A stretch of 64,000 nucleotides of DNA, from the NCBI RefSeq assembly GCF_013009075.1, contig NZ_CP053108.1:2870517-2934516 (forward strand), given 5' to 3'. Each line of letters starts with the position of its first letter. Positions within the stretch are counted from its first letter, which is position 1. The translations under genes and the position numbers were made by a program. The DNA comes from Halomonas sp. TA22. GTDB taxonomy: Bacteria; Pseudomonadota; Gammaproteobacteria; Pseudomonadales; Halomonadaceae. Below the pieces are notes generated by a model. It was given only the letters and a program-made list of their open reading frames with translations. It had not been told where the DNA came from and did not search any database. This document shows, piece after piece, positions 34,411 to 37,776 of this stretch.

Positions 34411-35112
34411 ATGAAAAAATCAACGACTGGCTTTCTACTCGGTTCCGCCCTGGTAATCGGGTTGTCCGGCTGTGCGGCATCTGGCCCTACCGGTGGTCAG
34501 CCTGCGGGCCAGACAGCTAACACTACTACCACTGGAGGTGGCGCCTGGTATCAGCATCCAGCTGTCTGTGGTCTGGCTGGCGGTCTGATCGGCGGCAGCA
34601 TCGGTTATGCCACAAGCGGTAGCTCCGATGAAGAGACCGGGGCGGCTGTAGGTGGCGCTGCAGGTGCTGCCATTGGCGCTCTGCTGTGTGCCGATCGCAC
34701 CCCTGAACCGACTCCGCCGCCTCCGGCACCGGCTCCCGAGCCGATGCCTGAACCTGCGCCAGAGCCCGAGTTCGAGCCTGTTGTGCTGAGCAGCGAAGTC
34801 AACTTCGAGTTCGACTCTGCTGACCTGCGTCCCGAGGCCAGCATGATGCTGGACGAAGTGGCTCATCGTCTGCGTGAAAACCCCGAATTGCGTGTCAGCA
34901 TCGAAGGCCATACCGACTCCGTTGGTAACCCGCAGTACAACGTTGGGTTGTCTCAGCGCCGTGCGGATTCCGTCAAGGCTTACCTTGTCAACCAAGGCAT
35001 CGATCCGAACCGTATGAATACTACGGGCTATGGTGAAGAGCGTCCGGTTGCCAGCAACGATACGCCGGAAGGCCGTGCAGAAAACCGTCGCGTCGAAATC
35101 GATCGTCAATAA
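34411..35112 (+). CDS. OmpA-family outer-membrane lipoprotein
   Basis: A 233-residue lipoprotein. The signal peptide ends in a lipobox LSGC (Cys21). A glycine-zipper region (GGLIGGSIGYATSG, then GAAVGGAAGAAIGALLC) follows, probably membrane-associated. A Pro/Glu/Ala-rich linker comes next, and residues 125-233 form an OmpA-C domain that binds peptidoglycan through the diaminopimelate site (NFEFDSADLRPEA, EGHTDSVGNPQYN, LSQRRADSVKAYL, ENRRVEI). It probably links the outer membrane to the cell wall, like Pal or YiaD. It is a single-gene unit closed by a strong terminator. Confidence 0.92.
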   Translation: MKKSTTGFLLGSALVIGLSGCAASGPTGGQPAGQTANTTTTGGGAWYQHPAVCGLAGGLIGGSIGYATSGSSDEETGAAVGGAAGAAIGALLCADRTPEPTPPPPAPAPEPMPEPAPEPEFEPVVLSSEVNFEFDSADLRPEASMMLDEVAHRLRENPELRVSIEGHTDSVGNPQYNVGLSQRRADSVKAYLVNQGIDPNRMNTTGYGEERPVASNDTPEGRAENRRVEIDRQ

Positions 35113-35141
35113 CTATCGCCGCTCTTCGAGCAGCGATGCCT

Positions 35142-35178
35142 AGCAGGGGCGCCATATGGCGCCCCTGCTGGTTTTGGG
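35142..35178 (+). terminator. Terminator after the OmpA-type lipoprotein
   Basis: A perfect 28-base palindrome, AGCAGGGGCGCCAT with its complement (35142-35169), followed closely by GGTTTT. The GC-rich stem and short T-run fit a Rho-independent terminator separating this gene from thrS. Confidence 0.85.
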
Positions 35179-35265
35179 GTGTGGCGAAGCGTCGTGTGCT
35201 TCTGTTACGCTGCCCCGCTGGATGCAACCCGCTATTTGCTGTTTTTCATATACCCATTGCAACAT

Positions 35266-35286
35266 GTGATCCCTGGTATGGATCAC
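35266..35286 (+). promoter_or_regulatory. thrS leader hairpin that mimics the tRNA-Thr anticodon arm
   Basis: GTGATCC and GGATCAC form a 7-bp stem around a 7-base loop CTGGTAT, 21 bases before the thrS start codon. The loop has the layout of an anticodon loop: pyrimidine, U33, GGU at positions 34-36, A37. GGU is the anticodon of tRNA-Thr(GGU). In E. coli, threonyl-tRNA synthetase binds an anticodon-like hairpin at this place in its own mRNA and blocks ribosome binding. The same translational autoregulation is likely here. Confidence 0.7.
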
Positions 35287-35307
35287 CACTGTGCTTAAGG
35301 ATTTTTA

Positions 35308-37206
35308 ATGCCCATCGTCACTTTGCCTGACGGCACTCAGAAAACCTTCGACTCTCCACTCAGTATCATGCAGCTGGCCGAATCCATAGGACCGGGCTTG
35401 GCCAAGGCCTGCGTGGCGGGGAAGATCGATGGCATGCTGGTCGATGCCGCCGACACGATAGATCACGATGCCCAGGTGGCGATCATTACCAGCCGTGACG
35501 AGGAGGGGCTCGAGATCATTCGCCACTCCTGCGCTCACCTGATCGGGCACGCGGTCAAGCAGCTCTATCCTGATGCCAAGATGGCGATCGGACCGGTCAT
35601 CGACGATGGCTTCTATTACGATATCGATTTCGGCCATTCGGTGACGCCAGAGGACTTGGGTGCCATCGAGAAGCGCATGCAGGAGCTGATCTCGCAAGAG
35701 TATGACGTCGTGCGTGAATACGTTCAGCGAGGCAAGGCGCTGGAGACGTTCAGCCAGCGCGATGAACCCTATAAGCAGGAGATCGTGAGTGAGATACCCG
35801 AGGGGGAGACGATTCGCCTCTATCACCATGAAGAGTATACTGACATGTGCCGGGGGCCCCATGTGCCCAACACTCGCCATCTCAAGTCCTTCAAGCTGAC
35901 CAAGCTTGCCGGCGCCTACTGGCGCGGTGACTCCAGCAAGCCGATGCTGACACGTATCTATGGCACCGCTTGGGGCGACAAGAAGCAGCTCAAGGCCTAT
36001 CTGCATCGTCTCGAGGAGGCGGAGAAGCGTGATCACCGCAAGCTGGCGCGCAAGCTCGACTTTTTCCATATGCAGGAGGAAGCGCCTGGCATGGTGTTCT
36101 GGCACCCCAAGGGCTGGACGCTATGGCAGGCCGTCGAACAGTACATGCGTAACGTCTACAAGGAGAGTGGATACCAGGAGATTCGCTGTCCTCAGATCAT
36201 GGATGTGTCGCTGTGGAAGAAGTCCGGTCACTGGGACAATTACGCCGAGAACATGTTCTTCACTGAATCGGAGAAGCGAGAATATGCGCTGAAGCCGATG
36301 AACTGCCCGGGGCATGTGCAGGTCTTCAACTCCGGGTTGCGCAGCTATCGGGAGCTGCCGGTCCGTTACGGCGAATTCGGCGGTTGTCACCGTAACGAGC
36401 CGTCCGGCGCGCTGCATGGTATCATGCGAGTGCGTGCTTTCACCCAAGACGACGGTCACGTCTTCTGTACCGAGGCGCAGATCGAGTCTGAGGTCACTGC
36501 CTTCCATCGCCAGGCATTGAAGGTGTATGGCGATTTCGGTTTTGACGACATCGCGGTGAAGATCGCGCTGCGTCCCGAGAAACGCCTTGGTAGCGACGAT
36601 GTCTGGGATCGTGCCGAGGAGGCACTGCGTGCAGCGCTGGCCGCGTGCGATGTCACGTGGCAGGAGCTGCCGGGTGAGGGCGCCTTCTATGGTCCCAAGA
36701 TCGAATATCACATGAAGGATTGCCTGGGTCGCGAATGGCAGGTCGGCACCATGCAGGTCGACTTCATGATGCCGACTCGGCTCGGGGCGCAGTACGTCAC
36801 CGAGGAGGGCGATCGCAAGGCGCCGGTGATGCTCCATCGCGCCATCGTTGGCTCCATGGAGCGCTTCATCGGTATTCTCATCGAACATTACGCAGGAGCG
36901 ATGCCGCTATGGCTGGCGCCGTCCCAGGCCGTGGTGCTCAATATCACCGATTCGCAGCGCGAATATGCCCATAATCTGGAACAGCGGCTGCAGAAAATCG
37001 GCTTGCGCGTCAAGGCGGACTTGAGGAACGAGAAGATCGGCTTTAAAATCCGGGAGCATACGTTGCAGAAAGTTCCTTATCTCCTGGTAGTGGGTGACAA
37101 GGAAGTCGAGTCCGATGCTGTTGCCGTGCGCACTCGCAGCGGTGAGGATCTCGGCACGATGAAGGTCGAAGACCTCATGTCCCGGCTCATTGCCGAGCGC
37201 GTGTAA
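35308..37206 (+). CDS. thrS: Threonyl-tRNA synthetase
   Basis: A 632-residue class II synthetase that charges tRNA-Thr. Domains in order are TGS (1-60), the editing domain (about 65-225, with [16 protein letters not shown] and the CRGPHVPNT site), the catalytic core (245-530) and the anticodon-binding domain (535-632). The zinc-binding cysteine is Cys333 in MNCPGHVQ, equivalent to Cys334 of E. coli, and [11 protein letters not shown] is the motif 2 region. The length is close to the E. coli enzyme (642). It heads the thrS-infC-rpmI-rplT-pheST-ihfA block, and its leader has an operator-like hairpin. Confidence 0.98.
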
Positions 37207-37236
37207 TACAACGTCAACCAATACGGAGATGTAACG

Positions 37237-37776
37237 ATCAAGCGGAATACTCAACGCGGGCGTCCCCAAGACAAGCGCCCCCCAATGAACGAGCGTATCA
37301 GCGAAGACGAAGTCCGTCTTATTGGCGCCGAGGGTGAGCAGTTGGGTGTCGTGCCCACCAGTGAAGCCCTCGAGCAGGCGGAAGCCGCTGGTATGGACCT
37401 CGTACAGATATCCAACGCCGATCCGATCGTCTGCAAGATCATGGATTACGGCAAATTCGTCTTCGAGCAGAAGAAGCAGAAGTCTGCTCAGAAGAAGAAG
37501 ACCAAGCAGATCCAGGTCAAGGAAGTCAAATTCCGTCCTGGCACCGACGAGGGCGATTATCAGGTCAAGTTGAAGAACCTGATTCGTTTCCTGGAAGGTG
37601 GCGACAAGGGCAAGGTTACGCTACGCTTTCGCGGTCGTGAGATGGCACACCAGGATATCGGCCGCAAGCTGATGGAGCGTGTTGCCGCCGATCTCGACGA
37701 GCTGGCGAATGTGGAGTCCTTCCCCAAGATGGAAGGGCGCCAGATGATCATGATTCTTGCCCCCAAGAAGAAGTGA
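37237..37776 (+). CDS. infC: Translation initiation factor IF-3, starting at AUC
   Basis: IF-3 binds the 30S subunit, prevents premature joining of 50S and checks the start codon. The ATG at 37285 would give only 163 residues, lacks a ribosome binding site (it follows a run of C) and removes the conserved basic N-terminus. The codon ATC at 37237 has GGAG eight bases upstream and gives 179 residues, beginning with [15 protein letters not shown], against 180 in E. coli. E. coli infC uses the rare start AUU, which lets IF-3 repress its own translation. AUC would serve the same purpose here. The linker region is lysine-rich, as usual. Confidence 0.93.

Follow-up and report, generated by a model that had tools for sequence, protein, structure and literature searches.

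Directly upstream of thrS, the gene for threonyl-tRNA synthetase (ThrRS), the genome of Halomonas sp. TA22 contains a small hairpin that resembles the anticodon arm of tRNA-Thr. Is this hairpin an operator at which ThrRS represses its own synthesis, and does the loop mimic one particular tRNA-Thr or a signal common to the threonine anticodons? According to passages of three papers (PMC11088916, PMC9976931, PMC3858243), E. coli ThrRS binds two anticodon-like hairpins in its mRNA leader and blocks the 30S subunit, and a change of the anticodon-like letters to a Met version shifts the control to MetRS. We addressed the question in a stretch of 64,000 nucleotides around thrS (hereafter, the window), where the leader and its gene comprise the following features:

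35142-35169, forward strand: inverted repeat, a possible terminator of the upstream ORF, recognized by reading the sequence
35186-35202, forward strand: GAAGC-GUCGUGU-GCUUC, with U33-C-G-U in the loop; possibly a second anticodon-like hairpin, a weak candidate of low confidence
35263-35265, forward strand: CAT, the 5' part of a lower motif; C and A are able to pair with TG at 35290-35291, and the third base is part of an internal loop
35266-35286, forward strand: anticodon-arm-like hairpin with a 7-bp stem and a 7-nt loop, very probably domain 2 of the thrS operator
35273-35279, forward strand: the loop, CUGGUAU (CTGGTAT in the DNA), with U33 at 35274, N34 at 35275, G35 at 35276, U36 at 35277 and A37 at 35278
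35287-35291, forward strand: conserved CACTG in the 3' flank of the stem (CACCACUG when the last stem bases are included)
35297-35301, forward strand: Shine-Dalgarno sequence AAGGA, 6 nt 5' of the AUG
35308-37206, forward strand: thrS, encoding ThrRS of 632 amino acids, identified as an ORF and by homology

The stem arms GTGATCC (35266-35272) and GGATCAC (35280-35286) form all 7 bp, and exactly 21 nt (35287-35307) separate the end of the stem from the ATG at 35308; the initial annotation, which had given the stem length, the loop CTGGTAT and this distance, is exact to the base. The preceding ORF (34411-35112) is OmpA-like by sequence and is followed by the inverted repeat, which is absent from the output of a terminator scan. 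A pattern scan of 35080-35400 yielded no match to a sigma-70 promoter, and no tRNA gene was found in the window directly 5' of thrS. Elsewhere, a tRNA gene in this position seems to be common, because tRNA-like 3' ends had to be trimmed from 59 leaders; for example, a tRNA-Val(GAC) gene lies just upstream of thrS in L156 (1145-1222) and L147 (1181-1255).

The folding energy of the hairpin is unremarkable. In the local piece, the hairpin is the minimum free energy (MFE) structure at -9.1 kcal/mol, with z of -1.13, and the whole 151-nt leader folds with z of +0.44. Moreover, 21 of 200 shuffled sequences fold as well as the hairpin, as would be expected of a chance structure with an anticodon-like loop. 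That the hairpin goes beyond chance follows from the comparison among leaders and genomes and not from folding energy.

For this comparison, we collected 173 thrS leaders, including those of the window and E. coli. The sources were relatives, a sample of Gammaproteobacteria and a named Halomonas/Xanthomonas set. A scan requiring U33, G35 and U36 detected the hairpin followed by CACTG in 83 of these leaders, which represent 62 distinct sequences and align without gaps. In this alignment, 95.7% of the cells are paired, compared to 28-56% in slid controls, and double-sided changes occur in 6 of the 9 pairs. Double-change cells number 53 against 11.0 ± 4.2 in shuffles, and the covariation score is 0.373 against 0.175 ± 0.011; the loop-closing pair is broken in 13 of the 62 leaders. 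When the window's family is excluded, the remaining 29 leaders retain 95.4% paired cells, 14 double-change cells (2.3 ± 1.3 in shuffles) and a covariation score of 0.286 (0.182 ± 0.016); of the five measures, the number of further pair types is unremarkable in this set (equalled by 39 of 500 shuffles). The stem is kept by compensatory changes in the relatives, the check that had been suggested along with the initial annotation. The candidate CA/TG pairing below the stem is a different matter: 96% of its cells are paired in the 62 leaders, the MFE structure leaves it open, and it shows zero double-sided changes despite these 96%, so that this pairing is unproved.

From the 29 leaders outside the window's family (alignment A2, E. 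coli and 28 others) we built a covariance model, R2. In the window, R2 matches the hairpin with 43.5 bits and an E-value of 4.5e-13, against 13.8 bits for the next-best place, and a second model, R1, whose training leaders include that of the window, finds a single strong match in the whole genome, the thrS leader, with 47 bits, followed by 14.5 bits; E-values of both models, here and below, are rough, given that the models were calibrated on short runs. Altogether, 142 of the 151 genomes of the window's family match R2 at E <= 0.01, and the conservation among relatives that had been proposed as another check is thus seen with a model built without the family. For the 37 genomes G000-G036, the set compared for nearness to thrS, the top-scoring place is no more than about 300 nt upstream of the thrS match in 31. 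Six of the nine genomes missed by R2 were inspected: in G016 and G036 (leaders L133 and L134), stem and loop are perfect when the sequence is read directly, G017 (L130) keeps 6 of the 7 stem pairs, G020 (L015) has an intact loop and CACCACTG with a broken stem, and G004 and G027 (L007 and L009) have diverged leaders. The combination of an intact loop and CACCACTG with a broken stem recurs in another halomonad leader, L043, and in both cases might reflect natural loss of the operator. The match to a model that omits the family, the covariation and the conservation in the family jointly refute the chance hairpin, to which we attach a negligible probability.

Outside the family, 149 of 377 gammaproteobacterial genomes match R1 at E <= 0.05, some of these matches being false, and 69 of 299 genomes in a phylum sample match at E <= 0.001; the six phylum-sample matches outside the class (24-28 bits) are all away from thrS. 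Among the 60 loci L051-L110, which are the next-best matches to the window ThrRS and come mostly from Xanthomonadales, the element is present only in L105, which comes from a metagenome-assembled genome titled Proteobacteria bacterium, and the four second copies of thrS that were read (L137-L140) are without it. Leaders L145, L158 and L163 are variants: their anticodon-like loop sits on a stem rich in GC, and the CACCACUG motif is missing. The tRNA mimicry known from E. coli is widespread in Gammaproteobacteria, yet no Rfam family covers the element: in Rfam 15, no family reaches its gathering score on the hairpin, and the sub-threshold matches in 35100-35330 all lie outside it.

The initial annotation described the loop as a copy of the tRNA-Thr(GGU) anticodon loop and singled out GGU as a genuine threonine anticodon. 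The genome encodes a tRNA-Thr(GGU), with the anticodon arm CACCC-UUGGUAA-GGGUG, and the operator loop is identical to it at positions 33-37 and different at positions 32 and 38. This agreement stands, but the specificity for GGU does not. A scan with the loop left unconstrained (at least 6 of 7 stem pairs and at least 4 of 5 letters of CACTG) retrieved 85 leaders, 64 of them distinct and one of these (L084) a chance hairpin; the 64 have U33 in 61 cases, G35 in 63, U36 in 64 and A37 in 54, and position 34 is G in 39, C in 18, A in 5 and U in 2. A larger set (199 of 291 leaders, 161 distinct), biased in that it was collected partly with model R1, has C in 76, G in 63, U in 13 and A in 9 at this position. 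Because position 34 varies, being G, C, A or U, the loop is not isoacceptor-specific, and the copy of a single isoacceptor, tRNA-Thr(GGU), is ruled out. Judging from the sequences, the loop carries what all threonine anticodons share (U33-N-G35-U36) and is no replica of a single tRNA; the letters that matter in the loop statistics from many genomes are U33, G35 and U36, all nearly fixed, with position 34 free. GGU certainly is a threonine anticodon, but CGU, the version in the E. coli leader, is equally genuine. The window's genome also encodes tRNA-Thr(UGU), and a tRNA-Thr(CGU) gene may exist as well, because typing covered 30 of the 49 tRNA matches.

The hairpin lies upstream of the Shine-Dalgarno sequence and AUG of thrS, combines a 7-nt loop carrying U33 and G35-U36 with the flanking CA / CACCACUG motif, and matches a model that includes E. 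coli and excludes the window's family. Its structure, covariation, conservation and position, as well as its uniqueness in the genome, are direct observations. We conclude with high confidence that the hairpin represents domain 2 of the translational operator of thrS, where ThrRS would repress its own synthesis. A stable hairpin just 5' of the Shine-Dalgarno sequence could, alternatively, serve solely as a standby site or an mRNA stability element, without binding ThrRS. Near-invariant U33, G35 and U36 would be unexpected for such an element while the stem bases and N34 change, and so would its restriction to thrS; this role by itself appears very improbable.

The mode of action of the operator can be modelled on E. 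coli, from which the binding of ThrRS, the competition with tRNA and the exclusion of the ribosome are carried over. ThrRS free of tRNA-Thr would use its C-terminal anticodon-binding domain to dock on U33-N-G35-U36 of the loop, in the same way as on tRNA-Thr. Its placement would depend on the conserved CA.../CACCACUG motif flanking the stem, presumably the one described as characteristic in the crystal structure. The bound enzyme would cover the ribosome entry site (Shine-Dalgarno sequence at 35297-35301, AUG at 35308) and exclude the 30S subunit. With more tRNA-Thr, ThrRS would be competed off and repression relieved. On the side of the enzyme, we probed seven positions that we assume to be the anticodon contacts of E. 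coli ThrRS (502, 547, 549, 575, 583, 600 and 609): six are kept, position 502 is G as opposed to N in E. coli, and the six kept ones are also conserved in the operator-less Xanthomonadales.

No equivalent of E. coli domain 4, the second ThrRS-binding hairpin, is recognizable in the window leader. In principle, the ThrRS dimer could contact the domain 2 hairpin with one subunit and the upstream candidate at 35186-35202 with the other, as with domains 2 and 4 in E. coli. The candidate has a 5-bp stem and the loop GUCGUGU, and in 173 leader pieces, upstream U33-N-GU hairpins number 14 against 2.0 ± 1.35 (maximum 5) in 100 shuffles; of these 14, one is a copy from the tandem operator of L251, L010 and the window (L174) contribute two hairpins each, one of the window's lying in the inverted-repeat region, and close relatives account for two pairs. 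Other upstream U33 loop classes are equally frequent in the 173 pieces (GA 16, AC 11), and we regard them as remnants of tRNA arms. The candidate is not found in the same place in 46 other leaders, the MFE structure shrinks its loop to 5 nt via a G-U pair, and it may lie upstream of the transcription start. Tandem complete hairpins in three other leaders agree with a bipartite arrangement in general; for the window, we nevertheless consider it unlikely and keep to the single domain 2 hairpin.

These tandem operators before thrS consist of near-identical copies in L251 (590-658) and of different copies in L252, with a spacing of 37-38 nt in both; the third case is L025. The two hairpins of a tandem may be there for the two subunits of a ThrRS dimer.

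We also looked for ThrRS targets other than thrS. In the window's own genome, nothing besides thrS scores above 14.5 bits. Twenty places from the searches (suspects, tandems and weak matches) were fetched, of which 8 lie beside thrS and 12 away from it. The place in L237 (1494-1524) is a near-copy of the thrS leader of the same genome, intergenic and with no gene in register; it could be a relic or an ectopic operator. L239 lies inside a coding ORF, L244, L247, L253 and L254 look, by eye, like antisense sequence of the IF2 gene, and L238, L240, L241, L242, L245 and L246 are away from thrS and were read as sequence only. Fifteen further matches off thrS, including the six outside the class, look like chance because all are inside open frames of at least 143 codons and none is near thrS. 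Among the matches inspected, no second ThrRS target is supported.

The more surprising result concerns the enzyme itself. The window ThrRS looks chimeric, with a Xanthomonadales-like catalytic domain embedded between a halomonad N-terminus and a halomonad anticodon-binding domain, the two parts of interest being:

36109-36858, forward strand: apparent chimeric segment, thrS codons ~268-517, catalytic domain, Xanthomonadales-like by identities and trees
36910-37203, forward strand: anticodon-binding domain (presumably about residues 535-632), of halomonad type by identities and trees, which would read the operator loop

The window ThrRS scores 1068 bits against chain 6vu9, which we assume to come from Stenotrophomonas, and 932 bits against E. 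coli. We compared eight halomonads of core type A (the window and seven others), 14 halomonads of core type B and 10 Xanthomonadales. Identity of the 14 type B sequences to the window is 75-87% over residues 1-60, 82-87% over 61-240, 71-74% over 241-400, 58-63% over 401-530 and 74-86% over 531-632; for the 10 Xanthomonadales, the values over the same segments are 52-65, 52-68, 79-86, 75-80 and 61-66%, and the seven other type A halomonads are 84-96 and 82-92% identical to the window over the core. A set of 101 diagnostic columns separates type B from Xanthomonadales. Over these columns, the eight type A sequences agree with type B in 239 of 272 cells at residues 1-270, with Xanthomonadales in 320 of 440 cells at residues 291-530, and with type B again in 56 of 64 cells after 530. 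In the window, the switch points fall between residues 262 and 268 and between residues 517 and 528.

Phylogenetic trees of the core and of the flanks disagree accordingly. In the core tree (residues 281-530), type A groups with Xanthomonadales (SH-aLRT 100), and a single halomonad clade is rejected with p-AU of 7e-5; in the flank tree, all 22 halomonads are united (100), and a grouping of type A with Xanthomonadales is rejected with p-AU of 3e-5. These p values are only indicative because both trees were built quickly and lack bootstrap values, and the groups were defined once the identities were known. In the flank tree, types A and B are intermingled within the halomonads, with at least three forced changes, a pattern pointing to repeated intragenic recombination in halomonad thrS. 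Within this tree set, the hairpin is present in 8 of 8 type A and 14 of 14 type B leaders and in 0 of 10 Xanthomonadales leaders. We see an even chance that halomonads exchange the catalytic core as a module while the operator and its reading domain stay constant, the swaps perhaps being driven by natural ThrRS inhibitors and limited to pieces that spare autoregulation. If the chimera is real, a synthetase catalytic domain has crossed from one bacterial order to another, leaving in place the parts that read RNA and their target in the mRNA, and a link between enzyme evolution and autoregulation becomes testable.

As a possible mark of drug resistance, we considered M489 in the type A core. Passages of the respective papers report that L489 mutations confer borrelidin resistance in E. 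coli (PMC4389257) and that M489 gives no protection against obafluorin (PMC11252418). M489 is also common elsewhere, in 14 of 23 other rows, and was dropped as a resistance mark. Homeoalleles of archaeal ThrRS are treated in PMC3191353.

Downstream of thrS, infC appears to start at AUC (37237-37239), in frame with an ATG at 37285 and preceded by GGAGA at 37225-37229. This apparent start resembles the rare AUU start of infC in E. coli.

The closest known counterpart of the window hairpin is E. coli operator domain 2. The K-12 leader (NC_000913.3) reads GTGATCT-TTCGTGT-GGGTCAC-CACTG and shares with the window the position before thrS, the 7-bp stem, the 7-nt U33-N-G35-U36 loop, the CACTG 3' flank and the 21 nt from the stem to the AUG, which bears out the earlier statement that the hairpin is placed as in E. 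coli. The window differs in having GGU instead of CGU, A37 instead of G37 and a fully Watson-Crick stem, and the large upstream stem-loop predicted in the E. coli leader (z -3.7) has no counterpart in the window's 151-nt leader. The ThrRS structure entry 1KOG is presumably the operator complex, and Torres-Larios et al. (2002, Nat Struct Biol) reportedly generalized the thrS operator motif to other Gram-negative bacteria; these operators appear to have the same motif, and the halomonad element falls into the same series. Passages on yeast HisRS and AspRS describe the same principle, recognition by a synthetase of an anticodon mimic in the mRNA that encodes it (PMC6542539, PMC9976931), although these cases are eukaryotic, involve other synthetases and are likened here by description, not by sequence. 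Among the titles listed in our search for thrS operators or leaders and mosaic ThrRS, none deals with halomonad thrS leaders or chimeric bacterial ThrRS. The operator type is already known from E. coli, and the halomonad element is a further case; what is added to the Gram-negative series is the genome counts, the freedom at position 34 and the tandem copies.
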